From a virus: DNA of 48,520 nt. Position 1 is the first letter of the stretch; each line of letters starts with the position of its first letter. The translations under genes were made by a program, and so were the position numbers. The stretch is from IMG/VR virus record IMGVR_UViG_3300027770_000085, positions 1 to 48,520 of that record; one strand, written 5' to 3'. This document shows positions 1 to 22,483 of the stretch, one piece after another. The notes beneath the pieces are model-generated. The model was not told the origin of the DNA. It ran no database searches and was given only the letters and a program-made list of their open reading frames with translations.

Positions 1-1092
1 ATTGCTGCGTCTGATGTTCCTCTGACGATTGTTGTTGTTGCTCCTCGCATTCTGCTTGCTAATCAACTCTCTGATGAGTTTGAGCAGTATCTAAAGAGCG
101 AAGAGATTTGTATTGCTCACGTACATAGTGGAGAAACTCATCACTTTAGTAGCACACAATCACACAAGATTGCGGCACATAATGCAGTAGCAAAAGCACT
201 TCATCAACATCATTTGATTTTCACTACTTATCACTCATTAGAAAGAGTAAATGAGTCAGGTATTGTGATTGATGTTGCATATTTTGACGAAGCACACAAT
301 TCTACCAAACCAATGAATAGTGTAGGTGTTGCTCGTACATCTGAATCATCCAATGCTGCTTATTTCTTTACTGCAACTCCTAAGATTGCGATGAGCAACA
401 GTACTGTATATGGCAGTAATATTATTTCTATTAGTGCAAAGGAACTTGTAAGTGTCGGAACTATTCTTTCACCACAAGTGGAGACCTATGAGTTTGATGA
501 AGTTCGCACGAAAGAGAATGCTGCGTTTGTGGATGCAGAGAATATTCTTGGTATTCTGAATAATATGAATGAAACAGCACCAAAGGTATTGGTTGCTGCT
601 CCTTCTACAAAAGTAATCTGGGATGCACTGTCACATACTTCACTTCTACAATCATTGATTGATATGGACTATGTGGTAATGCACATTACGTCCAAGCACG
701 GTGCATATATCAATCGTAAGAAAGTTACAAGGGAAAAGTTCTTTGAGCAACTTACACTTCTGGGTAAGGACAGCACACAAAAGATGATTGTGTTTCATTA
801 TTCTATTTTGTCTGAGGGTATCAATGTGCCTGGACTGACGCATTGTATTATGTTGCGTAATCTTCCTACGATTGAGATGCTTCAAACGATTGGTAGAGTG
901 ATACGAGTATCTCAAGAAGATCGGAGTGCAATACAAAACAAACAACTACAACCTGGACAGTTTGAGTTTTACAAGAAGCCATATGGTAAGATTATCATTC
1001 CAGTTTCCAATGGTTATGGTGATCAGATTGCAAAAAAGATTCAAGGACTTGTAGATGTTGTGTTTGTTCAAGGTGAGATAGTTACTACATAA
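1..1092 (+). CDS. SF2 DNA/RNA helicase, 3' part (5' end outside window)
   Basis: The frame is open from the first base, so the gene begins upstream; 363 residues are visible. Helicase motifs in order are Ia-like APRILLANQL near the start, motif II DEAH at nt 286-297, motif III TAT within FFTATP at about nt 370, motif V-like SEGINVPG at about nt 813, and motif VI QTIGRVIR at about nt 883. The Walker A motif I must lie upstream. This order defines an ATP-dependent superfamily 2 translocase of the DEAD/DEAH or restriction-helicase type. T4-like phages carry such enzymes (UvsW is the T4 example) for recombination and replication-fork processing, but I cannot show that this is UvsW. Small early-type genes and the candidate origin lie downstream. 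The family is firm; the exact role is inference. Confidence 0.88.
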   Translation: MAASDVPLTIVVVAPRILLANQLSDEFEQYLKSEEICIAHVHSGETHHFSSTQSHKIAAHNAVAKALHQHHLIFTTYHSLERVNESGIVIDVAYFDEAHNSTKPMNSVGVARTSESSNAAYFFTATPKIAMSNSTVYGSNIISISAKELVSVGTILSPQVETYEFDEVRTKENAAFVDAENILGILNNMNETAPKVLVAAPSTKVIWDALSHTSLLQSLIDMDYVVMHITSKHGAYINRKKVTREKFFEQLTLLGKDSTQKMIVFHYSILSEGINVPGLTHCIMLRNLPTIEMLQTIGRVIRVSQEDRSAIQNKQLQPGQFEFYKKPYGKIIIPVSNGYGDQIAKKIQGLVDVVFVQGEIVTT

Positions 1093-3503: not shown

Positions 3504-3836
3504 ATGTCCTTCACCAAAACTCAAGAACAGAAACAAGAGCGTTGGGCACGTATTGCTGAACTTGAAGTATCGAAGAGAGTTATGACTTCTGCTCAATCTA
3601 TTAGTGCCCGTAACAAACAAAAGAAAGCAACTATATTAGCAGACAAAGCAGAGAATTTACTTAACTCTCTCACACAGTCTGCAAGAGTATCTAAAGCACC
3701 GATGGGAACTAATCCTCTGACAGTAGAAGATAAGGCACCTGTACCTGATGCTAATACCTTCTTACCTAATAGAAAGAAGATAGATCAATTAGCAGTTAAG
3801 GCAAATCAAATCATTGATGATATTCTTAAAGGTTAA
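3504..3836 (+). CDS. basic hypothetical protein, 110 aa
   Basis: This is the first gene behind cassette 3. The N-terminal 65 residues are highly charged and helical (KTQEQKQERWARIAELEVSK ... NKQKKATILADKAENLL), possibly a coiled coil. A Pro/Ala linker (APMGTNPLTVEDKAPVPDA) follows, then a short C-terminal helix (IDQLAVKANQIIDDILKG). Net charge is positive, unlike its acidic neighbours, so nucleic acid or RNA polymerase contact is conceivable but not shown. I do not recognise a family. A weak AGCAGG sits just before ATG 3504. Confidence 0.72.
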   Translation: MSFTKTQEQKQERWARIAELEVSKRVMTSAQSISARNKQKKATILADKAENLLNSLTQSARVSKAPMGTNPLTVEDKAPVPDANTFLPNRKKIDQLAVKANQIIDDILKG

Positions 3837-3857
3837 TCTCTTTATTTCTCAAATCAA

Positions 3858-4040
3858 ATGAACAAACAAACCTGCATTGATGAACTGATTGAAACATTTA
3901 TGAATCGTCTTGAGTATTTGATTGACATAGATGATTATGCTAGTGCCGATGCAATTCACTCTGAATTTGTTGTGAATGGAATTGAACCTGAACACGGTGA
4001 ATACATCTGGTTATTTGTTCCAAACCTTTCTCTTTATTAG
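3858..4040 (+). CDS. small acidic hypothetical protein, 60 aa
   Basis: The gene begins 21 nt after the previous stop in the local context CAAATGAA with no Shine-Dalgarno sequence. The product is acidic, with two predicted helices (CIDELIETFMNRLEYLIDI and DYASADAIHSEFV) and a hydrophobic end (EYIWLFVPNLSLY). Paired helices with an Ala/Asp turn look like a TPR-like hairpin, but one unit is too little to call. Family unknown. It belongs to the cassette 3 transcript. Confidence 0.66.
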   Translation: MNKQTCIDELIETFMNRLEYLIDIDDYASADAIHSEFVVNGIEPEHGEYIWLFVPNLSLY

Positions 4041-4068
4041 TAACTCTCTCACTTCATTCATTAATCAA

Positions 4069-4197
4069 ATGACTATTCGTTTCACTCAAGACATTCACAC
4101 AAAGCAAACTGTTTATGTAGTATGTGATCTCTCTGGTCAGTGTATATTGTTGACTACACTTATCTGTGATGCGATTGCTAAAGTACAAGAAATGTGA
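4069..4197 (+). CDS. small hypothetical protein, 42 aa
   Basis: I start this gene at ATG 4069 (context CAAATGACT, as in five other genes here) rather than at an in-frame ATG at 3976, which would overlap the previous gene by 65 bp. The product begins MTIRFTQDIHTKQTVYVVCD and continues with a hydrophobic strand and helix (CILLTTLICDAIAKVQEM). It may be a tiny beta-beta-alpha domain. It is the last gene before the noncoding block with divergent promoters. Confidence 0.55.
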   Translation: MTIRFTQDIHTKQTVYVVCDLSGQCILLTTLICDAIAKVQEM

Positions 4198-4334
4198 TAT
4201 GTGTGTCTGCTATTGATGTAATTAGAAATGATTAATTAATGTTATTAAAAACATATGTGTTATATTTTGCTATTATAGTATAATGTCTGTTATTATGAAG
4301 TATTATAAGTTCTTATTGTCTTCTAAGGCTGTTA

Positions 4335-4363
4335 ATTATAACACACCACAGTTTATTTGTCAA
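4335..4363 (-). promoter_or_regulatory. leftward sigma70 promoter, perfect consensus
   Basis: On the minus strand, TTGACA (4363-4358) is separated by 17 nt from TATAAT (4340-4335); both hexamers are perfect. The predicted start is near 4328, reading left. No minus-strand ORF of useful size follows, so the transcript would be noncoding or antisense to the small early genes. It forms a divergent pair with the rightward promoter at 4408. Confidence 0.72.
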
Positions 4364-4414
4364 GTGTTTCCAAGGGATTATAAGATTTCCGACACATTCT
4401 GAGACACTTGACAA
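4357..4414. repeat. inverted repeat embracing both divergent -35 boxes
   Basis: Eleven-bp arms TTGTCAAGTGT (4357-4367) and ACACTTGACAA (4404-4414) are perfect inverse complements, and each arm contains the -35 box of one divergent promoter. A GTGTTATAAT core is also shared by both -10 regions. The layout looks like a duplicated and inverted promoter, or a symmetric regulator-binding arrangement. Confidence 0.75.
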
Positions 4415-4437
4415 CCCCCGACTTCGTGTGTTATAAT
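4408..4437 (+). promoter_or_regulatory. rightward sigma70 promoter, perfect consensus
   Basis: TTGACA (4408-4413) is followed after 18 nt by TATAAT (4432-4437). The predicted start is about 4444. The transcript would run through the TTTTCCACA array; the next plausible gene starts only at 5201. This suits an origin-activating or noncoding RNA, or a long leader for the 5201 gene pair. Confidence 0.75.
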
Positions 4438-4495
4438 GACTTCGTGGACTGAGATAATAACTTCGTGTATCTGTGAGTATGATACTACTTCGTCC

Positions 4496-4807
4496 TGTGG
4501 AAAACTACTTTTCCACAGGTTGTTCGTGGTAGTATAGAGTATAAGAACTGTTCGTTGTAATAGTTTTCCACAGGTTTAGAAGTAGTTGTAGTATTTGCAA
4601 GGGTTTATAAGATTTACCCTGTGGAAAACTCTCATAAACCTGTGGAAAACTCTTCGTTTACCTGTGGAAAACTACACAAACCTGTGGAAAACCTCATAAG
4701 ATTGTGGAATACCTGTGGAAAACTCTTCGTTTACCTGTGGAAAACCTTTATCGTCCTGTGGAAAACCTTTATCGTCCTGTGGAAAACCTTTATCGTCCTG
4801 TGGAAAA
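4496..4807. repeat. array of 12 DnaA-box-like 9-mers (TTTTCCACA), candidate replication origin
   Basis: Exact TTTTCCACA occurs on the + strand at 4509 and 4564. Its complement TGTGGAAAA starts at 4496, 4620, 4641, 4663, 4683, 4714, 4736, 4757, 4778 and 4799, with a one-mismatch copy at 4703. Spacings in the main block are 21, 22, 20, 20, 11, 22, 21, 21 and 21 bp, all close to whole helical turns, so sites would face one side of the helix. The first two form an inverted pair with 11-bp arms CCTGTGGAAAA and a 4-bp gap. The 9-mer fits the bacterial DnaA-box consensus TTWTNCACA, and I recall TTTTCCACA as the box reported for a Synechococcus origin. An origin, an iteron block for a phage protein, or a DnaA-titration site are the readings I favour. 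Confidence 0.78.
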
Positions 4808-5200
4808 CTCTCAGTTCTTCTAATTATGATACCCCCGGTACAGTTATTTTACATACCCTGGGTATAGTTTATATTAATATCAATCAATTTAGTATAATAA
4901 CCAATATTTTGTAGTTCGTGTATATTATTATACAGCACTATTTGACAGTTATATTCAACGTTGTTTGTTTGTTATTATAAACCGATGCCTAAAGTAAAAA
5001 CGCATAACTACCCTAACCTACAACGGACCAAAAACGAGAGAGTGATTACGAGTCCGTTTCAAATCGCATAAGTGTTTCCCCTCTTTTATAAAAAATTTCG
5101 GAGGAAAAAAATACACAAAAAAGGTTTCTCACATAATATCGCACAAATCAAAGTATCATAATGCCTATATAATTTTTGAAGACCCAAAACAAAAAAAAAG
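4808..5200. other. AT-rich noncoding region next to the array
   Basis: No credible gene lies here. Visible elements are two GTA-type dyads (TACC-CCC-GGTA at about 4830 and ATACCC-T-GGGTAT at 4853-4865), a TTGACA without a matching -10 (4942-4947), and an inverted repeat AACGGAC/GTCCGTT (5022-5028 and 5052-5058). There is also an isolated GGAGG at 5100-5104 with no nearby start codon, and a TATAAT at 5168-5173 that may serve the gene at 5201. The high AT content suits a DNA-unwinding element. Confidence 0.55.
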
Positions 5201-5550: not shown

Positions 5551-6303
5551 ATGGCAAAAGGATTTACAGTTAAAGCAAAGGCACCATTAAGTACATCATC
5601 AACAGATGATTTTAATTTACAGGCAACTAAAGAATTAATTAAAGGAAAGTCGGTTGTATTTTGTCTTCCAGGTCGTGGAGTATCATATACATATTTAAAG
5701 AATTTTGTTCAGTTATGTTTTGATCTTGTGCAGAATGGTGCAAGCATTCAAATATCACAGGATTATTCTTCCATGGTAAACTTTGCACGTTGCAAATGTT
5801 TAGGTGCAAATGTTCTCAGGGGACCAAAACAAATACCTTGGGATGGAAAACTTCAATATGATTATCAACTTTGGATTGATAGTGATATCGTATTTGATAC
5901 AGAAAAGTTTTATCGTCTTGTAGCAATGGATAAAGACATCGCAGCAGGGTGGTATATGACTGAAGATGGTCATACTACCTCAGTTGCTCATTGGTTAGAA
6001 GAAGACGATTTTAGGGGCAATGGAGGAGTCATGAATCATGAAACTGGAGATACAATGAGTAAAAGGCGCAAACCATTTACAGTCGATTATACAGGATTTG
6101 GTTGGGTACTGATTAAAAAAGGAGTATTTGAAAAACTTGAATATCCTTGGTTTGCTCCTAAAATGCAAGTCTTTGAATCTGGAGAAGTGCAAGATATGTG
6201 CGGAGAAGATGTTTCTTTCTGTCTCGATGCAAAAGAAGCAGGTTATGAGATTTGGTGTGATCCACAGATTCGTGTCGGACATGAAAAGATGAGAGTTATC
6301 TGA
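5551..6303 (+). CDS. glycosyltransferase, GT-A fold type, 250 aa
   Basis: The protein has the marks of a GT-A glycosyltransferase: a nucleotide-sugar core starting at SVVFCLPGRGVSYTYL (about 34-49), the metal-binding D-S-D motif in LWIDSDIVF (D110-D112), and a C-terminal acceptor/catalytic segment GEDVSFC (E219, D220) followed by His in VGHEK (H244). Such single-domain enzymes are common in cyanomyophages, where they may modify DNA bases, capsid proteins or host surface glycans; the substrate is not readable here. No signal peptide is present, so it is cytoplasmic. A strong terminator follows the stop. The start ATG lacks a clear Shine-Dalgarno sequence. Confidence 0.82.
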   Translation: MAKGFTVKAKAPLSTSSTDDFNLQATKELIKGKSVVFCLPGRGVSYTYLKNFVQLCFDLVQNGASIQISQDYSSMVNFARCKCLGANVLRGPKQIPWDGKLQYDYQLWIDSDIVFDTEKFYRLVAMDKDIAAGWYMTEDGHTTSVAHWLEEDDFRGNGGVMNHETGDTMSKRRKPFTVDYTGFGWVLIKKGVFEKLEYPWFAPKMQVFESGEVQDMCGEDVSFCLDAKEAGYEIWCDPQIRVGHEKMRVI

Positions 6304-7979: not shown

Positions 7980-8381
7980 ATGGCAGTAAAAATTTCTCGT
8001 AGTTTTAAAGATATTAGTTTATCTTTTACTAGACATCCAATTACGAATGATTTAACTGTTTTAAAAAATGAAGATTCGATCAAAAGATCGGTAATGAATC
8101 TTGTAAGAACTCGTATTGGGGAAAGATTTTTTAATAATTTATTAGGAACATCTATTGAAAACTCCCTTTTTGAAATACAAAGTTCTGAAATATCTGTATT
8201 TTTAGAACAAGAAATAACAAATTTAATTAATAATTATGAATACAGAATTAAATTAAATAATGTGATCATTGAATCTGAATTAGATAATAATGATTTAAAT
8301 ATTAGTATTTCTTATGACATTGTTGGTATGCCTTTTGCGACTCAGAATATAGAATTTATTTTACAATCAACAAAAGTCTAA
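7980..8381 (+). CDS. gp25: baseplate wedge subunit gp25
   Basis: The 133-residue product matches the gp25/GPW family in length (T4 gp25 is 132 aa) and pattern. It has an N-terminal SRSFKDISLSF segment with HPITNDL, the conserved LVRTRIGERFFNNLLGT helix region (about 41-57), and a C-terminal beta pair (DLNISISYDIVGMPFATQNIEF). gp25 is the lysozyme-fold wedge protein at the heart of contractile-tail baseplates, contacting gp6 and gp53 and the sheath initiator interface. Its stop overlaps the start of gp6 (TAATG), as is usual. The start at ATG 7980 gives MAVKISRS. Confidence 0.93.
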   Translation: MAVKISRSFKDISLSFTRHPITNDLTVLKNEDSIKRSVMNLVRTRIGERFFNNLLGTSIENSLFEIQSSEISVFLEQEITNLINNYEYRIKLNNVIIESELDNNDLNISISYDIVGMPFATQNIEFILQSTKV

Positions 8382-10249: not shown

Positions 10250-13200
10250 ATGTCTGAGATCAAAAGAGTTAAAATCAATCACATTTTAGATTCTCAAATA
10301 CCAGAGTTTCTAAATGAAGAATCGCCTACATTTAAACAATTTTTAAATCAATATTATATTTCACAAGAACACCAAACTGGTATAGTTGATTTATCAAATA
10401 ATCTGGTAAAATATAAAAGTATTGAAAATTTTAATAATGAAACTTTAATAGACTCTCAGTTACAATCAAAATTAACTTCTTCTATTTTATCATTTGATGA
10501 TATAATTTATGCATCTCATACAATCGGATATCCAGACAAATATGGTATATTAAAAATTAACGATGAGATCATTACATATACATCAAAAACACAAAATTCT
10601 TTTCTTGGATGTATACGTGGTTTTAGTGGTATTGAAAATCTTGAAAATAACAATAATCCAGAATTTTTAACTTTTACAAAAACTTTAGCAGAAGACCATT
10701 CTGCCGGAACAATAATCAATAACTTAAATTATATTTTCTTTTTTGAATTTTTTAAAAAATTTAAAAACCAATTTCTGCCAGGATTTGAAGAAAGAAGTTT
10801 TACTTCCAATATATCTATCGAAAATATTTTATCAAGAGCAAAGGATTTTTATACAACAAAAGGGACCGATACGTCTTTTAAAATATTATTTAAAGTTCTC
10901 TTTGGTGAAGATGTAGAAGTAATTAAACCTCAAGAATATATGTTGAGGCCATCTGATAATAATTATTTTATAACAAAAAATATTTTAGTAGAAAAAGTTT
11001 CTGGTGATGATCCTCTTTTTCTTGCTGGATCTACTTTGTATCAGCAAGTATCTTCTGGAACTGCTTCAGCTTCAATTTACAATGTCGAATATAGACCAGT
11101 TCAAGGTAAGAATTTATATGAAATTTCTTTAGATTCGACTTCTTTTATTAATAGTTTTGAATTTACCGGAACCACAAAAGTAATTGATTCTATATCAAAA
11201 AATTCAACAGTTATTAATGTAGATTCTACAGTTGGATTTGCATATTCTGGCACCGTAATTGCAAAAACAAATAGCGGAAATATTGAAATAAATTACACAG
11301 ATAAAACAAATACTCAATTATTAAATATTACTGGTCTCATTTATGATTTACAATTTGGTGATTTGATTTATGAAAATAAATTAGCTTATTCTTATGCAGA
11401 TTCTGATATTGATAACATATCTCCAATAAAATTTAGAATTATTAACGTAATAGGAAATGTCAATTTTGACAAATCTTCAAACTTAAGAAAAGGAGATAAA
11501 ATATCCTTAAGTTCTTTTGGTAAAAATATTTCAAAAGATTATAAATTTACAAGTTGGGTTTACAATATTCCAACCAATCATGATATTCAAAATATTGAAA
11601 TTCTTACAAATAATACTTATAGAATATATTTAAAAGATAATTTAATTGTACATAAAAATCAAAAAATTTATATATTTGACGGCGAAGAACAGATTGAAGC
11701 AACAGTTACAAATGTAGAAGATGGTGATAAAAGAGAAATCAAAAATAGATTTATTATAGAAACATCAAAAACATTAAATTTAAATAATGTAAGTAAAATT
11801 AAAAGAAAACTTATAAAATCAAGTTCTAATATCTTTTCAAATGTTTCAAATATAATTTCATCAGTTCAAAATACATATATTGACAAAAATGAAGAATACT
11901 TATATGTTGCTTGTTCTGGTCTTCCTGATTATCAAATTACATGCACATCAACAGAAAAAAATATTAGTTCTGTTGGATCTGGTACGACCGTTTTAACTAC
12001 AAACAATCACAATTTCTTAACTGGAGACAAAATTTATTATAATTCGAATTCTGTTGGAATTTCTACAGGGGTATATTTTGTAACAAAAATAAATGACAAC
12101 CAAATTAAATTGTCATATAGCAATAGTGATATTTTTAATGAAAAATTTATTCAAATTGATTATCCAATAACATCAGATCAAATCTACAAACTTGGTTTTG
12201 AAAATAAAATAATTAAAGATCAAAAGTTATTAAAAAAAATCAAATTAAATGATTCTATTGATTATTTTGATGATCCAGAAAATAGAACTACTTTTAATCG
12301 ACAAGTAGGTATTTTTGCAAATGGTGTAGAAATATACTCACCCACATTATTTGATGAAAATATTTATTATGGAATGGTCAATTCTATTACAGTCACAAAT
12401 CCAGGAAAAGATTATGACGTTATAAATCCACCAAATTTAATTATTTCAGATTCTATTGGATCTGGTTGTAATGCACATTTGATCCTTTCTGGTTCAATTG
12501 AAGAAGTGAAAATCAATTCTCCTGGAATTGGATATGATAGAAAACCAAAAGTAACTATTTCTGGCGGAAATGGCGAAGGAGCAATATTAGAAACAAATTT
12601 AGTCAAATCCAAAATTATTTCTAAATTAAAAGCCGATGGAACATCAGTAAATATTAATACAGATACTATTACTTTTTTAAATAATCACAATTTTGATAAT
12701 CACGAAGAAGTAATCTATTCAACAAATGGAAATACGAATATTTCGGGATTAATTGATAAATCTAATTATTTTATAAAAATTGTAAATTCAAAATCAGTAA
12801 AATTACATAAAAATAAAAATGATTCTATAGTTGGCATTAATACAGTTAATATTACTGGAATTAGTTCTGGTTTTCATCAATTTAATACTTTAAATTCAAA
12901 AAACACAATTACTAAAATATATGTAAAAAATAAAGGAAAAAATTATTCAAATAGACTTGTTAAAGTTGCTTCTAGTTTTTATCCTAGTTTTGGAATGGAA
13001 ATATCTGGAATTAATACTGCAGATAATTATATTTTTGCAAAAAATCACGGATTTAAAAATCAAGATTTTATAAAATATTCCTATACTAATACATCAATTT
13101 CTGGATTATTATCGACAACAGATTACGTAGTAACAGTAGTTGATAAAAATAAATTCAAACTTTCAGAAACTGGAACAGAAATTAATTCAATTAAACAAAA

Positions 13201-16200
13201 TTATTTAAATAAAAAATATGTAAAATTTGATTCTTTGGGTGTTGGAACTCATACTTTTTATTATCCACCAATTCAAATTAATATAGAAACAGTTTCTGGA
13301 ATTGGATCTACTGCTATTGTTGCACCGATATTGACTCCTGTTGTTTTGGGATCTGCCGAAAGTGTATATATTGAAAATGGAGGAAATTCTTATGGAAGTC
13401 CAAACATTATCAATTTCCATAGAAGACCCAATGTAGAATTATCTTCAATTAGTAAAGCACTACTTAAACCGGTAATTGTAAATGGATCTATCAATGATGT
13501 TCAAATTATTTTTGGAGGTAATGGATATGATAATGGAACACAAGTAATAATTTATGGTGAAGGAAAATATGCCGACTTAAAACCAATAATTGAAAATGGA
13601 TCAATTGTAAATTTTTCTATTGTTGACGGTGGAGTTGGTTATGCTTCATCAAATACAACATTAAGCGCAGTAAGAAGAGGATCTGATTTAAAATTTGTAG
13701 TAGACGTTTTTGAATGGAAAATTGATCAAGTTGAAAAAAATAAAAATACAATTCTAGTAAATGGTGGCGATGACGAAACACTTTCATATCCAGCATTAGA
13801 TTTGAATTTGGGGTTACAACCAATAAATTTTTATTTGTCAAGACAATTTAGAAAAAATCTTTCAGATAATATTTTAGACAATAATCAAGAACAAACTTCT
13901 TCATTTCGACATTCCCCAATTGTGGGATGGGCATATGATGGAAATCCAATTTATGGTCCATATGGATATGAAAATTTAAATGATACTACCATTAAATTAA
14001 TTTCATCTAGTTATAGTAAAAAATCATTACCAACTAATGATCTTAGACCAAATAATTTTGTAAATGGATTTTTTATTAATGATTATGAATATAATTCTTC
14101 CGGAGATTTGGATGAATATAATGGAAGATATTGCATTACTCCAGAATATCCATATGGGACATATGCTTATTTTACAACATTTGAACTAATATCAAATATA
14201 TTAAACCCATTATATCCATATGTAATTAGTCAAAAATTTAAAGATACGCCAATTTTAGAAAACTTTAATCCAAGTTTTTCACAAAAAACAAACATTTCAA
14301 CTTATAATATAATTAGAAATTTTAGTAATTATTATGTAGATTCCATAAATTCTGGTTATGAAATTATTGAAAAAATTTCTCCAAATTTAAAACAAGAATT
14401 TATTGTAAAAGATATTAAAAAATCTGGAATTTCTTCTATTTTTATTGACAATTTTGGTTCAAATTATTCTGTGAATGATGTAATTAAATTTTCTAACACA
14501 CCAGACGGCACAGGTGTGAGTGCCCAAATTTCAAGAATATCTGGTAAAAATATATCAAATCTTATAGTTGGAGTGACTACTTTTAATGATGTAATTTTTT
14601 ATTCAAAGGAAAATACTTTGAATCAAATTGTAGGAATAACTTCATTTATTCATAATTTAACCACAGGTGATGAAGTAGTTATTTCTGGATTGTCTACAAT
14701 TTCTCTTTCACAATTAGAAGGTGTTAAAAATATTTTTGTAAACCAAAAAACGACAGAATTGGTAGAAACATTACAAAATACATCTACGACAGGAATATCA
14801 ACATATCTTACAGTTAAAGATGTTGTTGGATTTGAGGTAAGTGATAATATTGGTGTTGGAACGGAATATATGACCATCACCGGTATTGATCCAAAAAAAT
14901 CTCAAATTTTAGTCAATAGGCAATCTGGTGGAGGAATTCATACAGTAGGAATTGAAAGCGTAAGACTTCTTACAAATAAATTTGAATTTTTTGAACCAAA
15001 AGCAATTGGGTATACAATTCCAGAAAATAAAACTGTTTACTTTGATCCGACAAATACTATTGGATATGGACAATCTGGATCTACTTATTCTGTTGTAGGT
15101 ATTGGAACAAGTACAATAAATATCAGATTTGTTCCAGAAAAATCCATATATCTAGAAAATCATAGATTTTATACTGGACAACCATTGGCATATAATTATT
15201 CTGCAGGAGCTGGAATTAGTGCATATTCGGAGTCTAATGGAGCACCAATAACATTAAATAATAATCAAATTGTATATGCTGTAAATTTTGGAAATAATTT
15301 TCTTGGTATTTCAACTCTAGGATTTACTACTTCTGTTGGTATTGGAACAACATTAAATTCGGTAACGTTTTTATATAATTCTTCCGTTGGTTATTCGCAT
15401 TCATTGACAACATATTATCCAAAAATTACTGGAAGAGTTCAAAACTATGCGGGAATTGTAACAACTTCTGATCCTCATGGTTTGTTTAACGGAGATAAAA
15501 TTAAATTTACAGTTCTTCCGTCAAGAGAAGAAAGTATTAAATTTAGATTTGATAGAAAAAATAAAAAAATAACAACCGATTTGATAGGTATTTCTACTAA
15601 TTTTGTTTCCATAGGGGGAACTTCAAATATTAATATTCCAAATAATAATTTAAAAACAGGAGATAAAGTAATATACTATGCAGGAAATGTAGGTATTGGA
15701 GGGTTGATTGATAATGCGATTTATTATGTAATTAAACAAAATCCAGACAAAATACAATTATCAAATTATGCATATGATGCATCCATTGGAATTGGAATCA
15801 CATTTACCTCTGTTGGTGTAGGTACTCATAATATCGCACTCATAAATCCTCCATTATCTTTTACCAAAGGGGATGTAATTACTTTTGATGTATCAGATTT
15901 ATCTTTAAATGATTTAAAATTAGAATTTTACAAAGATCAAAATTTTCAAAAAAGATTCGAAATAGATAAAAAGAAAACAAATTCATTAGCCATTGATAGA
16001 TCTGGCGTTGCTGTTACAATAACAACAAATCAAAGAAATATTCCAAATTTGCTTTATTATAAGTTTTCCTCAACTTCTCTTTTTGATATCGATGCTTTTC
16101 GATTGTCTTCTGATTTTGAAGTATTTGGAAATAATAAAATTGACATTAGGCAAAGTTTATTGAATAGTGACTATTCAATAATAGGAATTAATTCTACTTC

Positions 16201-19200
16201 ATTTAAATTCAATTTAAAACAAAAACCAGAAGATACTTCATACACACAAACATCGGGTATTTCATCGGTTTTTTATGATACAGATTCAATCAATTCTACT
16301 GGTTCAATATCAAAAGTAAGAATCAATTCTAAAGGAAAATCTTATTCAAAAATTCCTTCAATTGTTTCAATTGCAAGTACAACTGGAAGTGGCGCAATTT
16401 TATATCCAACTTCAGAAGAAATTGGAAAAATAATATCAATTGACAGAATCAAAGATGGGTTTGATTATCCGACAGATCCTACAACTTTACCGCAATTAAG
16501 TATTCCAGCGGTTTGTATTATCAAAGACATTGCTAGAATAGATTATGTTGGAATTTTAACATCTGGAAAAAATTACAATACACCACCCAAATTGAAAATA
16601 ATAGGAAATAATGATATTGAAATATATGCAGGAATTCAAGGTGGATCAGTTGTTTCTGTAAATATTTTAAAAAACTCTTATAATTTAAAAGAACCACTTA
16701 GAATTGTTCCATATAATAATTCAAATGGATATGAAATAGATTCAATTTATGCTAGTGCTACTAGTGGTATAGGAACAATTGAATTAGTTAATGACCCTGT
16801 TTTATATCCATACATTTCTACAGGGTATGGAACTACTGAAATTGATTTTCCATTTTCTGTAGGAGATAAGATCTTTATCGAAAAATGCAGATTGACACCT
16901 TCATCTTCTGGATTAGCAAATTTCAATTCAAAAGATTATGGATATAATTTTTTTACAGTAACAGGTGTAAACACTACAAATTTTGTTGTAAACTATTCAA
17001 TGTCTGGTTTACAGACAGGAACATTTGGAAATTATAATAACTTATTAACACTTGGATATGTTGTTAATAAAAAAGATATGGCAGAATTTCAGATGGTTCT
17101 AATTGATGATGCAAATTATAATTCTGGCGAAAGAGTTATTTCTGGATCTACATTTTCTGCAAAAGTTATGGAAAATGGGTGGGACAATGATACTAATCAA
17201 TTAAGATTGATAGATGTTCAGGGAACATTAAATATTGAAGATAAACTTTATGGAGAGGAATCAAAATTAAATGGAACAGTCAAATATGTAAGTAAATTTT
17301 CTTTGGACTCTGACTTAAATGTTTTTAGAGAAAAAATTAATGATTTTGGTGATAAAGTTGGATTTTTAAATGATTATCAACAAAGAATTTCTGATAATGA
17401 TTACTATCAAAAATTCTCATATTCGATTAAAGGACAAATACCATATTCAACTTGGAAAGAATCTGTAAAATCAATTGTACATCCATCTGGATTTAAAGAA
17501 TTTTCTGATTTAGTTATTACGGGAATAGTAACTTCTGGTCCATTAAATCTTGGTGTTGGAAAATCAACAAATATGAAAGTAAACGCTGTAAATCCAGATC
17601 CATTTTTACTTGTAAATATAGACAATACCGCAGATTTATCTGTTAAAAATAATTTTGCTATGGTATATGAAGATGATCAATTAGATGATGGATCAGTTGA
17701 AAGAATATTTTTCTTAGAAGGAATTGCTCTTAGATCTTATACATTAAATAAAACAAACAAAGTTTATATGATTGATGATATCAGTAATCAATTTACTGGT
17801 TTTACTACCACTATTGGTGGTTCGATTGTTGGTTTGTCAAGTTTTAAATTAAAAAGTAAAGGTGATCCGATTTTTTATAAAGAGTTTGTTGGATCTGCTA
17901 GCACGATTATTGATTTATCAAATGATAAATTTATCATCCCAAATCATGGATTTCAATCTGGGCAAGAAATAATTTATAATCCTGGCGTTGGAACAAGAAT
18001 TGGTATTGCTACCACATCATATGCAACGGGAACTCTTGATATATTAATGAAAGTTGGTGCAGGAATAGGAAGTGCAATATATGAAAATGGATATAATAAT
18101 TATGTTCCATATATTGGAATTGTTACTGGTATTAGTAGTACAGTTTCTCCTGGAATTTTTTCACAATATTTTGGATTTGGTAATTCAATTCCTGGAGTGG
18201 TAAATATTGGAATTGGAACAGGAGCACTATTTCAAGTTCTTATTACTTATAATAGTAGCACTGGTAATCCTATTGGAACATCAGTTCAGTTAATTGATGG
18301 AGGAAGTGGATATTCCGTTGGGCAACAAATTTCAATTGCTGGAACTTATATGGGTGGTGCAACCCCCACAAATAATTTATATTTTACAATATCAAGAGTT
18401 TCTACAACCAGAGCTGGAACTGTAAATACGACATATGTAAGTGTTGCATCTACTTCTAGTGGGATTGGAACTGGTGCAATATTCAATGTAACAAGAGACG
18501 CAAATAAAGATATTTCTGAAGTAAGGATTGTAAATGGAGGAACAGGATATGCATCAACAGATCAAATTATAATTTCTGGTTCTAATGTTGGTGGGTCTAC
18601 TCCAGCAGATAACGTATACTTATCTCCAACCTTATTGGGGACCAATAAACTTCCATCAAATATATTTGTCAAAAAAATTGATACAAATAATTTTCAAGTT
18701 TCTGGTTTTTCAACAACTTTGAATATTCCGTTCAATTTGACATCACTTACGACTGGAACTCAATCATTTAGTTTTAAAAATCCAAATGAAAATGTGATAA
18801 TTTCGATTGATAATATTATTCAAAGTCCAATTCATAGAAAAAAAATATTACTGGGTCTTTCTACATCTATTGGTATTGGTTCTACAAGTGTATACATATC
18901 TTCCGGAATCAGCTCTGTTTTTAATAATGATATTCTCCAAATTGATAATGAATATCTAAAAGTCAATTCTGTTGGAGTTGGTTCTACTAATGTTTTAAAC
19001 GTAACTAGAGCATTTATGGGATCCGTTGCTGTTGGGCATACTGTTGGGGCAGCTACAACAATAGTGAAAGGAGATTTTAATATTATTGATGATGTAATAT
19101 ATTTTTCAACTCCTCCTTATGGTCCATCAATTGCATCAACCGATCCACAATTAATTCAAAATTCATCTTTTTCTGGAAGAGTATTTTCGAGACAATTGGA

Positions 19201-22200
19201 TGCATATAATCCAGTTGATAATAATTTAATTTTGGATGATATATCGGATCAATTTACTGGTATTGCAGCTACAACATTTGTATTATCGTCAAACAATCAG
19301 CCAGTTGCTGGAATTTTTACAAGTACAAATAGTAGCACAAACATAAACAACAAACCATTTATTCTAATTAATAATATTTTCCAAACTCCAGAAGTTGATT
19401 ATACAATTGATACACCAAATACAAATACGATTAAGTTTTTAACTGGTGCTCCAAGTGCAGGTAAAATTGTAAATGTTGCAATTACAACTGGGTTTGGTTA
19501 TCAACCCCTGATTGGTGCCGCAGCAACTGTTTCTGTATCAGCGGGTGGAACAATCAATTCAATCACCCTGAAAGGCGCTGGGAGTGGGTATAGAACGTCT
19601 CCGATTGTAAGTATTGCATCAACTGTTGGGTCTGGTGCTTCAATTTCTGCGATTGTTGGGGCTGGAGGAACAATAACGTCACTATCTATTATAAACGGAG
19701 GTATTGGATATACTGTCACATCATTGCCAGTTGCAGTAATAAGTTTACCATTACCTTACAGCAATTTAGGCGTTGCTTACACGGGTGGATCTAGTGGAAA
19801 TGGAATAGGGGCAAAGGTTTCAGTTCAAGTTGGAAATGGGTCAAGTATTATTCAGTTCAATATAGACAACCCAGGAATTGGATATAAAGTTGGCGATGTA
19901 TTATCTGTTGTGGGTTTGACCACAAATCCAAACATAGGAACATCATTCAGTGAATTTAGAATTACCGTAAATGAAACACTAACAGATAAATTTAGTGGAT
20001 TTTTTGTTGGACAGTTTATATCATTTGATGATATTTCTGTATATTTTAATGGATCAAGAACCAAATTCACATTAACACAAACTGTAAGTGGTGTTACTGA
20101 TGTTGTAGATCTAAAGAAAAAACCAGGTTCTGATATAGAATTGGAAAATAATTTATTCATATATTTAAATGATATACTACAAATTCCAAATGAATCATAT
20201 ACTATTTTAGGAAGTAGAATATTCTTTAAAGAACCACCAAAACCTGGATCAAAATGTAGTGTTCTATTTTTTAAAGGATCTGTTCGAGATGTTGAAACTA
20301 TTACTCCAGTAAAAACAATTAAAGATGGTGATGGTGTTCAAATTGGAGAAAACATTTATGACAATTTAGATATTGAACAGTTTGAACGAATTGTTAAAAA
20401 AATCGTTTCGAGTGATCAACTTGACACTTATAATTATGATAGTATAGGTATTAATACGAATACAAATAAACAAAGACCTCTTAAATGGACTAAACAAAAA
20501 CAAGATAGAATTATTAATGGATCTTTAGTATCAAAAGCAAGACCAAGTTTAATACCAACAATTAGACCAACAACAAGAATAATTAAAAATGTAAATATTG
20601 AAGATACTTCAATATATGTAAGCAGTGCATTTCCGTTATTTAATACATTAGACTCATTACCAGAAGAAGATGCTAATATTTTAATTGTCGAAACTAGAGA
20701 TACAGATTCTGCAATAGCAACAGCAATAGTTTCTGTTGCTAGTACAATTTCTTCAATTGCAATTTCAACAGGTGGAATTGGATATGCATATACAACATCA
20801 CCAAATGTTGCAATTTCGTCAATTTCTGTACAATTAAAAGATCCAATTTTAAACTGGACATTATCTTCTGGTCTTTCTACTAATACTTCCCTGTTTTCAA
20901 TTACCAATGGAAATCCAATAGTTTCTGTGGGTCAAAGTGGTGTTGTTGCAATTACAACAGATGCAAAAAATTACAGTTCAATTTTGAATGTGGGATTTGC
21001 TAAGACTGTATCATTTAATTCAGTTTCTTTTGCCTCGACTAATACTTATATTGCAGTTGGTAATAATGGAAAAATAATTAAAGCAATTGGTTATGGAACA
21101 ACAATATCTTCTTGGACAGAAATGAAAAAATATGAAGAATTTTCACAGTTTGGCATTATCACAAGATCTGAAAGTTCTTATATTTCATCTTTAACTAATG
21201 TTAACTATTTTTCAGATATTGGTAAGTGGGTTTCTGTCGGATATGGAGGAGCAATTTTTTCTGCAGTTGGTGTTGGATCAACTTCATTTACTAAAGTCGC
21301 ATCAAATACTTCTAGTAATTTTAAATCCATAGCATATGGAGCATCAAAACTAATTGCAGTAGGTGATGATGGTACAGTTTCGACATCATCAAATGGACAA
21401 TTCTGGGACACAGATATAATTACATCAAATAATTTAAATAAAATTATTTGGGATGGGGCAAAATTTATTGTAGTGGGTAATTCAAATTCTATATTTATAT
21501 CATTTTTTGGTGTTACTTGGGAACAAATAACACCAAATATTAATGGTAATTTTGTTAACATTAATTATAATACATCATATGAATTGTATACATTATTAAA
21601 CTCAAATGGTATATTGTATTATTCTTTTGATTTGATAAATTGGACATTTAGATCGACAAATCAATCAAATATTATAAATGATATTTTATATGTTCCAAAT
21701 AATGATGGTTATGTTTTAATTGGTGTTGGAGCAACTTCAATATATTCTACTGCTGTTTATAATTTTGCTACAGCAACATCAAATTCCACATCGGGCATCG
21801 TAACTTCAATTTCAATTACAAATCCTGGGTTTGGTTATAATCAAAATAATCCACCAAAAATATTAATACAACCAGACAAAGCATTAATTGAGCAAATAGT
21901 TTCCATAAAATCAAAAGGAGATCATGGATTAATTGTTGGGGTGGATACAAGTTTGGGATATGGATCGACTCTACCACAACTAATTTTTAGATTAAAATCA
22001 GAATCTTATGATAATACAACTTTAGGAATTGGTTATTCTGCTCTTGACAGTTTTGGAATATCAAATAGTGGAATATCGACAGGTGACTACTTTATCATTT
22101 ACGATAGTAATGTACAATGTGGACATGCTTTGACTGGAATTACAACTACAAACAATATAATAACAAATGTCGGAACGGCAAATACGTTTATTGATGGAGT

Positions 22201-22483
22201 TTATTATGCAGAGAACGTACAATCTTCTGGGGTTGGTATTGTTACTGTATTTTGTAAATTTTTACCTAGTCCCAATCATGTAAATCAAATTATAGTTAAC
22301 GCAGATCCATTAAATAGACCAAATGGTTTTTATGGGAAATATAGTTGGGGTAAGATTTATGATTATCAAAATAGGGGAATTGGTATTCCAAAAAACTTTA
22401 CAATAAATACAAATAATGGATTAGTTGGTTTATCTTCTGCACCAGAAGTGACCAGAACCAGAGGTTTGTTTAAAGGTAAATAA
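10250..22483 (+). CDS. giant virion protein in the gp7 (wedge) position, 4077 aa, with YHYH and beta-propeller domains
   Basis: It starts right after the gp6 stop and ends 22 nt before gp8, the T4 place of gene 7, but is about four times longer than T4 gp7 (1032 aa). The N-terminal 240 residues (start SEIKRVKINHILDSQIPEFL; FYTTKGTDTSFKILFKVLFG at about 203-222) look like the conserved docking part. A YHYH-type domain lies at about 1221-1306 (H1221, GWAYDGNPIYGPYGY, later TPEYPYGTYAYF). The rest is mostly beta repeats: at least a dozen GxGY units and several HGF/TGD units. Residues about 3530-3830 hold BNR/Kelch-like propeller blades (IAVGDDGTVSTSSNG). It is probably a baseplate-attached arm that contacts the host surface. 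The gp7 identity is by synteny only. Confidence 0.82.
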   Translation: MSEIKRVKINHILDSQIPEFLNEESPTFKQFLNQYYISQEHQTGIVDLSNNLVKYKSIENFNNETLIDSQLQSKLTSSILSFDDIIYASHTIGYPDKYGILKINDEIITYTSKTQNSFLGCIRGFSGIENLENNNNPEFLTFTKTLAEDHSAGTIINNLNYIFFFEFFKKFKNQFLPGFEERSFTSNISIENILSRAKDFYTTKGTDTSFKILFKVLFGEDVEVIKPQEYMLRPSDNNYFITKNILVEKVSGDDPLFLAGSTLYQQVSSGTASASIYNVEYRPVQGKNLYEISLDSTSFINSFEFTGTTKVIDSISKNSTVINVDSTVGFAYSGTVIAKTNSGNIEINYTDKTNTQLLNITGLIYDLQFGDLIYENKLAYSYADSDIDNISPIKFRIINVIGNVNFDKSSNLRKGDKISLSSFGKNISKDYKFTSWVYNIPTNHDIQNIEILTNNTYRIYLKDNLIVHKNQKIYIFDGEEQIEATVTNVEDGDKREIKNRFIIETSKTLNLNNVSKIKRKLIKSSSNIFSNVSNIISSVQNTYIDKNEEYLYVACSGLPDYQITCTSTEKNISSVGSGTTVLTTNNHNFLTGDKIYYNSNSVGISTGVYFVTKINDNQIKLSYSNSDIFNEKFIQIDYPITSDQIYKLGFENKIIKDQKLLKKIKLNDSIDYFDDPENRTTFNRQVGIFANGVEIYSPTLFDENIYYGMVNSITVTNPGKDYDVINPPNLIISDSIGSGCNAHLILSGSIEEVKINSPGIGYDRKPKVTISGGNGEGAILETNLVKSKIISKLKADGTSVNINTDTITFLNNHNFDNHEEVIYSTNGNTNISGLIDKSNYFIKIVNSKSVKLHKNKNDSIVGINTVNITGISSGFHQFNTLNSKNTITKIYVKNKGKNYSNRLVKVASSFYPSFGMEISGINTADNYIFAKNHGFKNQDFIKYSYTNTSISGLLSTTDYVVTVVDKNKFKLSETGTEINSIKQNYLNKKYVKFDSLGVGTHTFYYPPIQINIETVSGIGSTAIVAPILTPVVLGSAESVYIENGGNSYGSPNIINFHRRPNVELSSISKALLKPVIVNGSINDVQIIFGGNGYDNGTQVIIYGEGKYADLKPIIENGSIVNFSIVDGGVGYASSNTTLSAVRRGSDLKFVVDVFEWKIDQVEKNKNTILVNGGDDETLSYPALDLNLGLQPINFYLSRQFRKNLSDNILDNNQEQTSSFRHSPIVGWAYDGNPIYGPYGYENLNDTTIKLISSSYSKKSLPTNDLRPNNFVNGFFINDYEYNSSGDLDEYNGRYCITPEYPYGTYAYFTTFELISNILNPLYPYVISQKFKDTPILENFNPSFSQKTNISTYNIIRNFSNYYVDSINSGYEIIEKISPNLKQEFIVKDIKKSGISSIFIDNFGSNYSVNDVIKFSNTPDGTGVSAQISRISGKNISNLIVGVTTFNDVIFYSKENTLNQIVGITSFIHNLTTGDEVVISGLSTISLSQLEGVKNIFVNQKTTELVETLQNTSTTGISTYLTVKDVVGFEVSDNIGVGTEYMTITGIDPKKSQILVNRQSGGGIHTVGIESVRLLTNKFEFFEPKAIGYTIPENKTVYFDPTNTIGYGQSGSTYSVVGIGTSTINIRFVPEKSIYLENHRFYTGQPLAYNYSAGAGISAYSESNGAPITLNNNQIVYAVNFGNNFLGISTLGFTTSVGIGTTLNSVTFLYNSSVGYSHSLTTYYPKITGRVQNYAGIVTTSDPHGLFNGDKIKFTVLPSREESIKFRFDRKNKKITTDLIGISTNFVSIGGTSNINIPNNNLKTGDKVIYYAGNVGIGGLIDNAIYYVIKQNPDKIQLSNYAYDASIGIGITFTSVGVGTHNIALINPPLSFTKGDVITFDVSDLSLNDLKLEFYKDQNFQKRFEIDKKKTNSLAIDRSGVAVTITTNQRNIPNLLYYKFSSTSLFDIDAFRLSSDFEVFGNNKIDIRQSLLNSDYSIIGINSTSFKFNLKQKPEDTSYTQTSGISSVFYDTDSINSTGSISKVRINSKGKSYSKIPSIVSIASTTGSGAILYPTSEEIGKIISIDRIKDGFDYPTDPTTLPQLSIPAVCIIKDIARIDYVGILTSGKNYNTPPKLKIIGNNDIEIYAGIQGGSVVSVNILKNSYNLKEPLRIVPYNNSNGYEIDSIYASATSGIGTIELVNDPVLYPYISTGYGTTEIDFPFSVGDKIFIEKCRLTPSSSGLANFNSKDYGYNFFTVTGVNTTNFVVNYSMSGLQTGTFGNYNNLLTLGYVVNKKDMAEFQMVLIDDANYNSGERVISGSTFSAKVMENGWDNDTNQLRLIDVQGTLNIEDKLYGEESKLNGTVKYVSKFSLDSDLNVFREKINDFGDKVGFLNDYQQRISDNDYYQKFSYSIKGQIPYSTWKESVKSIVHPSGFKEFSDLVITGIVTSGPLNLGVGKSTNMKVNAVNPDPFLLVNIDNTADLSVKNNFAMVYEDDQLDDGSVERIFFLEGIALRSYTLNKTNKVYMIDDISNQFTGFTTTIGGSIVGLSSFKLKSKGDPIFYKEFVGSASTIIDLSNDKFIIPNHGFQSGQEIIYNPGVGTRIGIATTSYATGTLDILMKVGAGIGSAIYENGYNNYVPYIGIVTGISSTVSPGIFSQYFGFGNSIPGVVNIGIGTGALFQVLITYNSSTGNPIGTSVQLIDGGSGYSVGQQISIAGTYMGGATPTNNLYFTISRVSTTRAGTVNTTYVSVASTSSGIGTGAIFNVTRDANKDISEVRIVNGGTGYASTDQIIISGSNVGGSTPADNVYLSPTLLGTNKLPSNIFVKKIDTNNFQVSGFSTTLNIPFNLTSLTTGTQSFSFKNPNENVIISIDNIIQSPIHRKKILLGLSTSIGIGSTSVYISSGISSVFNNDILQIDNEYLKVNSVGVGSTNVLNVTRAFMGSVAVGHTVGAATTIVKGDFNIIDDVIYFSTPPYGPSIASTDPQLIQNSSFSGRVFSRQLDAYNPVDNNLILDDISDQFTGIAATTFVLSSNNQPVAGIFTSTNSSTNINNKPFILINNIFQTPEVDYTIDTPNTNTIKFLTGAPSAGKIVNVAITTGFGYQPLIGAAATVSVSAGGTINSITLKGAGSGYRTSPIVSIASTVGSGASISAIVGAGGTITSLSIINGGIGYTVTSLPVAVISLPLPYSNLGVAYTGGSSGNGIGAKVSVQVGNGSSIIQFNIDNPGIGYKVGDVLSVVGLTTNPNIGTSFSEFRITVNETLTDKFSGFFVGQFISFDDISVYFNGSRTKFTLTQTVSGVTDVVDLKKKPGSDIELENNLFIYLNDILQIPNESYTILGSRIFFKEPPKPGSKCSVLFFKGSVRDVETITPVKTIKDGDGVQIGENIYDNLDIEQFERIVKKIVSSDQLDTYNYDSIGINTNTNKQRPLKWTKQKQDRIINGSLVSKARPSLIPTIRPTTRIIKNVNIEDTSIYVSSAFPLFNTLDSLPEEDANILIVETRDTDSAIATAIVSVASTISSIAISTGGIGYAYTTSPNVAISSISVQLKDPILNWTLSSGLSTNTSLFSITNGNPIVSVGQSGVVAITTDAKNYSSILNVGFAKTVSFNSVSFASTNTYIAVGNNGKIIKAIGYGTTISSWTEMKKYEEFSQFGIITRSESSYISSLTNVNYFSDIGKWVSVGYGGAIFSAVGVGSTSFTKVASNTSSNFKSIAYGASKLIAVGDDGTVSTSSNGQFWDTDIITSNNLNKIIWDGAKFIVVGNSNSIFISFFGVTWEQITPNINGNFVNINYNTSYELYTLLNSNGILYYSFDLINWTFRSTNQSNIINDILYVPNNDGYVLIGVGATSIYSTAVYNFATATSNSTSGIVTSISITNPGFGYNQNNPPKILIQPDKALIEQIVSIKSKGDHGLIVGVDTSLGYGSTLPQLIFRLKSESYDNTTLGIGYSALDSFGISNSGISTGDYFIIYDSNVQCGHALTGITTTNNIITNVGTANTFIDGVYYAENVQSSGVGIVTVFCKFLPSPNHVNQIIVNADPLNRPNGFYGKYSWGKIYDYQNRGIGIPKNFTINTNNGLVGLSSAPEVTRTRGLFKGK

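Follow-up and report, generated by a model that had tools for sequence, protein, structure and literature searches.

A DnaA-box array adjoining a conserved promoter-like element at a candidate replication origin of T4-like cyanophages

What is a dense, ordered cluster of DnaA-box-like 9-mers doing in the genome of a T4-like phage? To our knowledge, DnaA has no known involvement in T4-type replication. In the stretch of viral DNA analysed here (48,520 bp, called the window), the 9-mer TTTTCCACA occurs 13 times on the two strands, 12 times within positions 4496-4807 and once at 25048, against a chance expectation of 1.27 for the whole window and a maximum of 5 in 100 shuffles. The densest 312-bp cluster in 200 first-order Markov resamplings contained 2 boxes, compared with the 12 observed. 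A preliminary description of this DNA had reported twelve exact 9-mers and one near copy in about 310 bp, with ten copies pointing one way; the count, shuffles and resampling confirmed the cluster, and 10 of the 12 exact copies are on the minus strand. The array is composed as follows:

4496-4807, both strands: DnaA-box array, 12 exact copies of TTTTCCACA
4496, 4620, 4641, 4663, 4683, 4714, 4736, 4757, 4778 and 4799, minus strand: ten boxes
4509 and 4564, plus strand: two boxes
4703: near copy TGTGGAATA, read from the sequence
4496-4517, unstranded: divergent box pair, 13-bp step
4564-4628, unstranded: convergent box pair, 56-bp step

From 4620 on, the minus-strand boxes follow one another at steps of 21, 22, 20, 31, 22, 21, 21 and 21 bp, the 31-bp step being made up of 20 and 11 bp via the near copy at 4703. 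The nine boxes of this main block gave a phase vector of R=0.969 at 10.5 bp, which was matched by none of 5,000 random placements and bears out the earlier statement that the main block, with steps of about 21 and 11 bp, lies on one face of the helix; the first box (4496) and both plus-strand boxes are off this phase. All 12 boxes share the longer form TTTTCCACAGG. An open reading frame of 97 aa (4621-4914) that runs across the array was considered as a coding repeat and taken as spurious, because 21 bp correspond to seven codons and arrays in relatives have 11-, 12-, 20- and 22-bp steps and boxes in both orientations. The triplets TAG-AAG-TAG-TTG-TAG after the box at 4564, which resemble a DnaA-trio, are not conserved in relatives.

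The identity of the 9-mer was assessed from published boxes and from its conservation. According to the accessible text of PMC4674748, TTTTCCACA serves as the DnaA box in S. elongatus, Anabaena and Cyanothece. Across 12 pairs of related arrays, substitutions affected 12 of 721 box positions and 715 of 4,064 linker positions, with Fisher P <0.05 in 10 of the 12 pairs; in the other two (L019-L124 and L124-L126) boxes were no better kept than linkers. The pooled P for this comparison (4e-39) is not to be taken literally, because the pairs are non-independent and most loci were recruited by a three-box pattern. Between the window and locus L050, none of 72 box positions and 29 of 237 linker positions had changed. 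None of 12 box-bearing phage records (the window record and some fragments among them) yielded a DnaA-C domain, which speaks against a phage-encoded DnaA in these records. The earlier recognition of the 9-mer as a cyanobacterial DnaA box thus stood, and the reading of the exact boxes as cyanobacterial DnaA boxes, that is, as predicted sites for host DnaA, is well supported. Among 283 boxes from 51 distinct arrays, the box was preceded by G in 73% and followed by GG (76% and 66%). The idea that box-less relatives hide an array of one-mismatch boxes was dropped, such boxes occurring at 0.17 per kb upstream versus 0.47 per kb elsewhere (42 loci). Locus L143 contains five copies of TTCTCCACA.

On the host side, a DnaA-C domain was detected in 20 of 26 genomes, many of them draft assemblies from single cells or metagenomes. 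The comparison with host origin boxes that the preliminary description had proposed gave a divided answer: one or two exact boxes were present near dnaN in 5 of 22 loci and none in the remaining 17, so that in those hosts the affinity of DnaA for the exact box is assumed. Ten of the 22 dnaN neighbourhoods had no TTWTNCACA, and one-mismatch boxes were frequent near dnaN. Five host genomes held 8-24 exact copies of TTTTCCACA each, in three of the five fewer than of a reversed control pattern, and since a host holds only this many, one phage genome with 12 boxes adds half as many or more. The array resembles a cyanobacterial oriC in its clustered exact boxes (12 in 312 bp; box as given in the available part of PMC4674748). 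It differs in being phage-borne, with phage genes as its identified neighbours and neither dnaN nor dnaA among them, in having 12 exact boxes rather than the 0-2 seen near dnaN in the 22 host loci, and in the presence of a sigma-70-type promoter pair.

Read from its sequence, the window is a fragment of a T4-like cyanomyophage. Its gene order is uvsW, an antirestriction-like gene, the array, phrog_1574, speD, gp25 and gp6, followed later by terminase, tail sheath and portal, and its nearest named relatives at the DNA level comprise single-cell marine virus records together with the Prochlorococcus phages P-SSM5 and P-SSM2. Two giant open frames (4077 and 2499 aa, at 10250-22483 and 24095-31594) lie between gp6 and the head-tail genes. 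The landmarks used for comparison were:

214-1092, plus strand: uvsW-like helicase, left synteny anchor
4938-5058, plus strand: second conserved noncoding element, edges approximate, often with the word CCCTAACCTACA, which here starts at 5011
5551-6303, plus strand: phrog_1574 protein, right neighbour
7980-8381, plus strand: gp25 baseplate wedge, right synteny anchor

This position has a counterpart in T4, where oriF, or ori(uvsY), is located at 115321, between uvsW (112677-114440) and gp25 (115404-115802). Boxes lie between the same two genes in the window, Syn9, S-SM2, P-TIM68 and contig G001; in S-PM2 uvsW is about 22 kb away, and a search for uvsW in DSL-LC03 gave no match. As described in the accessible part of a T4 review, oriF consists of a promoter plus a downstream A+T-rich unwinding element (PMC3016281), and the word DnaA is absent from that review (PMC3016281). 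The T4 genome (AF158101) contains two exact copies of TTTTCCACA in total and no box cluster. One of the two, at 115853-115861 inside gene 26, is 532 bp from the annotated oriF and may be there by chance.

A conserved feature next to the array was obtained by aligning the flanks of 12 arrays (those of the 78-bp class, described below, and their kin), which had a block in common, called the leftward element here. A profile of this block matched 112 loci with 86 distinct sequences, and a sequence-only model was built from 37 sequences, the window included. The element and its surroundings in the window are:

4293-4371: conserved leftward element, E 1.2e-7 in the window (which is part of the model)
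4335-4363, minus strand: leftward sigma-70-type promoter TTGACA-17-TATAAT, 12/12 matches, against the gene direction
4408-4437, plus strand: rightward sigma-70-type promoter TTGACA-18-TATAAT, 12/12 matches, reading into the array
4216-4315: candidate DNA unwinding element, downstream of the leftward promoter; 0.26% of the window's 100-bp stretches are less stable
4863-4912: further low-stability segment, flanking the array on its opposite side; 0.24% of the window's 50-bp stretches are less stable

Several ACTTCGT words occur at 4418-4493, between the rightward promoter and the array. At E<=1e-7 the model matched 18 of 27 whole records, comprising 14 of 21 named cyanophages and four other contigs, with one strong match per record in these 18 and in the window. 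Six of the 14 named phages (Sf-FS3, S-8S55, S-SKS1, SynMITS9220M01, S-SSM7 and S-SRM01) were outside the model, and for the other eight a match to it is built in. In DSL-LC03 and S-PM2 the element is at 80269 and 19285, respectively. P-SSM2, S-T4 and S-TIM5 had no match to the model, and T4, P-SSM4, P-HM1, ACG-2014f and AG-345-L05 had weak matches only (E 0.002-0.04). A single-sequence search found nothing in 17 records, which reflects an insensitive search, because the model later matched some of the same records.

Leftward promoters scoring at least 10/12 were present in 49 of 86 distinct elements, compared with 18 of 430 random 70-mers. Among the 15 copies from the 14 named phages and the window, only 8 reached this score, and 7, including those of Syn9, S-PM2, DSL-LC03 and S-8S55, scored 9/12 or less; in the window region as a whole, promoter-like sites with at least 9 matches numbered 10 versus 7.8 in shuffles, which is no excess. 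To the left of the element, 69 of 80 loci had a stretch belonging to the least stable 5% of the locus, the corresponding figure for the right side being 17.5%. In the 14 named phages and the window, less than 1% of the 3-kb locus was less stable than the least stable 80 bp on the left in 12 of 15 cases, and on the right in none of 15. The least stable 100 bp found no more than 700 bp from the boxes ranked in the top 0.07% to 6% in six whole genomes, so that low-stability DNA, as in an oriC-like origin, adjoins the boxes. Taken together, the leftward element resembles a sigma-70-type promoter firing into very unstable DNA. No RNA consensus structure was found in it, and none in the second conserved element; the sole Rfam match was far below the gathering score, and a structured RNA reading was rejected on these grounds.

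The boxes and the leftward element occur together more often than expected. In the 14 named records, 18 of 46 boxes were within 500 bp of the element (0.23 expected); these 18 were in 7 records, and at most 4 were reached in 20,000 random placements. A second, protein-led sample was collected by the neighbouring phrog_1574 protein (best 80 of at least 598 confirmed stretches), and in it 10 of the 25 loci that have the element contained two or more boxes, compared with none of the 28 that lack it (P=1.7e-4); the profile was partly derived from box-bearing loci, which may favour both links, yet the element occurs in box-less phages too. By position, then, the boxes belong to the leftward element.

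The preliminary description had proposed a search of related cyanophages for the same array, and its reading was borne out for the locus, which is shared, and not for the boxes, which only a minority of relatives carry. Three or more boxes were present in 6 of 46 protein-led loci with at least 1800 bases upstream, and two or more in 10 of 53 loci and reference regions of the same sample anchored on the second element. When viral contigs were scanned for three successive boxes, at least 120 stretches matched, and 77 of the 120 listed share window genes or the second element. Among named phages, clusters or pairs before gp25 were seen in DSL-LC03 (7 boxes), S-PM2 (3), S-SM2 (2), P-TIM68 (2) and Syn9 (2), and single boxes beside the leftward element in S-8S55 and S-SKS1; at this locus P-SSM2, S-SSM7, Bellamy, S-B05, S-SRM01 and S-T4 had none. 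Box presence tracked low G+C (10 of 17 loci below 0.36 and 1 of 42 above, window included), and on the phrog_1574 tree it needs 8 changes, at least 4 of which are forced by well-supported branches. Four box-less loci (L182, L183, L151 and L199) have other short repeat arrays, possibly other iterons, 2-3 kb upstream of phrog_1574; that of L182 comprises ten copies of CACTGTTTGA.

The second conserved element, located between the array and phrog_1574, was matched at 147 loci, some of them overlapping, in relatives with and without boxes. The word CCCTAACCTACA had one copy in 4 of 6 full genomes scanned and none in DSL-LC03 and S-PM2; its constancy in the alignment is uninformative, because the alignment was chosen by that word. 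A promoter with at least 11/12 matches precedes 28 of 63 copies of the element, versus 10 of 417 control stretches. A G-rich leader behind this rightward promoter was considered as an R-loop former and rejected, the median GC skew being only 0.22 with a wide spread.

Array geometry was also shared among diverged phages. In the 51 distinct arrays, same-strand steps were mostly 11-12, 20-22 and 31-33 bp, convergent steps fell at 13, 23-24, 56 and 78/79 bp (56 bp 13 times, 78/79 bp 14 times), and of 27 divergent steps of up to 100 bp, 13 were of 13 bp and 14 of 19 bp. The 56- and 78-bp steps are two helical turns apart. DnaA cooperation depends on box spacing, according to the part of PMC4451416 available, and the array has the regular spacing suited to cooperative binding that an oriC-like origin would have. 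The fixed gaps between facing sets of boxes suggest that these sets may form a defined nucleoprotein structure. In arrays of the 78-bp class (L046, L030, L014 and others), the spacer between the facing boxes contains repeated CAGTG words, partly at 11-bp steps.

We lean, by a modest degree, towards the array acting as the DnaA-binding module of a putative origin of replication in T4-like cyanophages, combined with an oriF-like promoter and unstable DNA. In broader terms, the locus is probably a replication origin to which arrays for host DnaA were added in some lineages, both DnaA binding and origin activity being predicted from sequence features. As at T4 oriF, the leftward transcript would form an R-loop in the unstable DNA and prime leading-strand synthesis. 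Host DnaA on the flanking arrays would help to open or shape the origin, or would tune the promoter early in infection, possibly with the side effect that DnaA is drawn away from host oriC; in box-less phages, promoter and unwinding element alone would suffice. The likeness to oriF includes the position between uvsW and gp25 and, in the window, a promoter (4335-4363) followed by unstable DNA (4216-4315), although the promoter consensus is weak in 7 of 15 phages. Unlike oriF, which in T4 has one exact box 532 bp away, the cyanophage locus has a DnaA-box array; its promoter is of the TTGACA type where T4 has the MotA middle-mode type; and its predicted leftward transcript is antisense to the flanking genes, whereas that of T4 is the uvsY message. 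The origin proposal of the preliminary description is strengthened by the oriF-equivalent position and the conserved promoter-like, low-stability element, and weakened by the patchy boxes and the lack of a GC-skew turn. The cumulative GC skew it had proposed to compute proved uninformative about the origin: the raw curve is monotonic, because nearly all genes are on one strand, the detrended extremes lie away from the array, and neither curve turns there. A stronger version, which we put forward tentatively and hold to be less than even in its chances, is that T4-like cyanophages have a single conserved oriF-derived origin onto which several lineages grafted perfect-box, oriC-like arrays, the hybrid both using and withdrawing the host initiator.

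Against the origin model, the conserved elements could form a promoter hub without origin activity. Another reading, which seems improbable to us, is that array-bound DnaA represses or activates the divergent early promoters and so times early transcripts, with no origin involved. Two divergent 12/12 promoters (4335-4363 and 4408-4437) do adjoin the array, and in relatives the conserved elements nearby also have promoters (the 28/63 versus 10/417 given above); DnaA reportedly also figures in work on how lambda replication is initiated, which we counted on this side. The leftward promoter, however, has no evident gene to serve, because the longest minus-strand ORF downstream of it (within 3800-4335) is 48 aa, and the low-stability DNA that 69 of 80 loci have on that side (least stable 5%) also speaks against control of transcription as the sole function. 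We give an equally low chance to a DnaA sink, in which the array would bind host DnaA and stop initiation on the host chromosome without any direct role in phage replication. Twelve boxes are many beside the 8-24 exact TTTTCCACA per host genome (n=5), and in E. coli the titration of DnaA by datA relies on two consensus boxes and four with one mismatch, according to the accessible text of PMC5835720. The array shares with datA its clustered boxes, of high affinity as judged from sequence, but differs in its twelve exact copies and in adjoining promoters and unstable DNA (datA as described in the available part of PMC5835720). A sink would not need fixed gaps of 56 or 78/79 bp and could sit anywhere, with no conserved promoter-like element and unstable DNA alongside; in four named phages as few as 2-3 boxes still adjoin the same element.

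The repeats might instead be iterons for a phage-encoded initiator or regulator, with an incidental match to the DnaA consensus, a reading that we regard as quite unlikely. Direct repeats of 21-22 bp are iteron-like, and other repeat arrays are found near the locus in some box-less relatives (L182, L183 and L151), but the conserved 9-mer is identical to the published cyanobacterial DnaA box, the locus shows no enrichment of its one-mismatch versions, and a search for the DnaA-C domain in the 12 box-bearing phage records found none. Functionless chance or low-complexity repeat expansion is very improbable: some copies did arise by duplication, judging from the tandem 21-bp units, but none of 100 shuffles reached the observed count, the boxes are kept relative to the linkers and diverged phages have the same geometry. 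Of the preliminary interpretation as a whole, then, the DnaA-box reading is well supported and the origin reading has gained ground, while the comparison with relatives bore it out in part.

In the literature covered, the replication start of T4-like cyanophages has been addressed only by a prediction for one phage, the single theta origin predicted for Syn9 according to the accessible text of PMC2984593. In Syn9, of the same phage family, the leftward element lies at 52636 and two boxes at 52565 and 52589, and the predicted origin of this phage, as far as the available part of PMC2984593 describes it, may or may not coincide with this locus. No paper combining cyanophage, DnaA box and origin of replication was found, in a search from which subscription journals were mostly outside scope, and the accessible parts of two papers dealing with cyanophages and DnaA (PMC6293099 and PMC2297514) do not treat such arrays. 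The present analysis adds a candidate origin that is defined and conserved in 14 of the 21 named cyanophage records examined. If host DnaA binds the boxes, T4-type replication in ocean and lake viruses would be coupled to the cell-cycle initiator of the host, and shut-off of host replication might result from DnaA capture.

Two further observations concern box arrays in other settings. One 284-kb contig (G002, IMGVR_UViG_3300027541_000009) has two box clusters, at about 29.4 and 239.1 kb, each with a leftward and a second element; it perhaps represents two genomes joined in assembly. Four loci without the tested genes or element (L081, L107, L070 and L057) contain direct repeats of TTTTCCACA at exact 12-bp steps, which by their sequence are another type of DnaA-box-like array.
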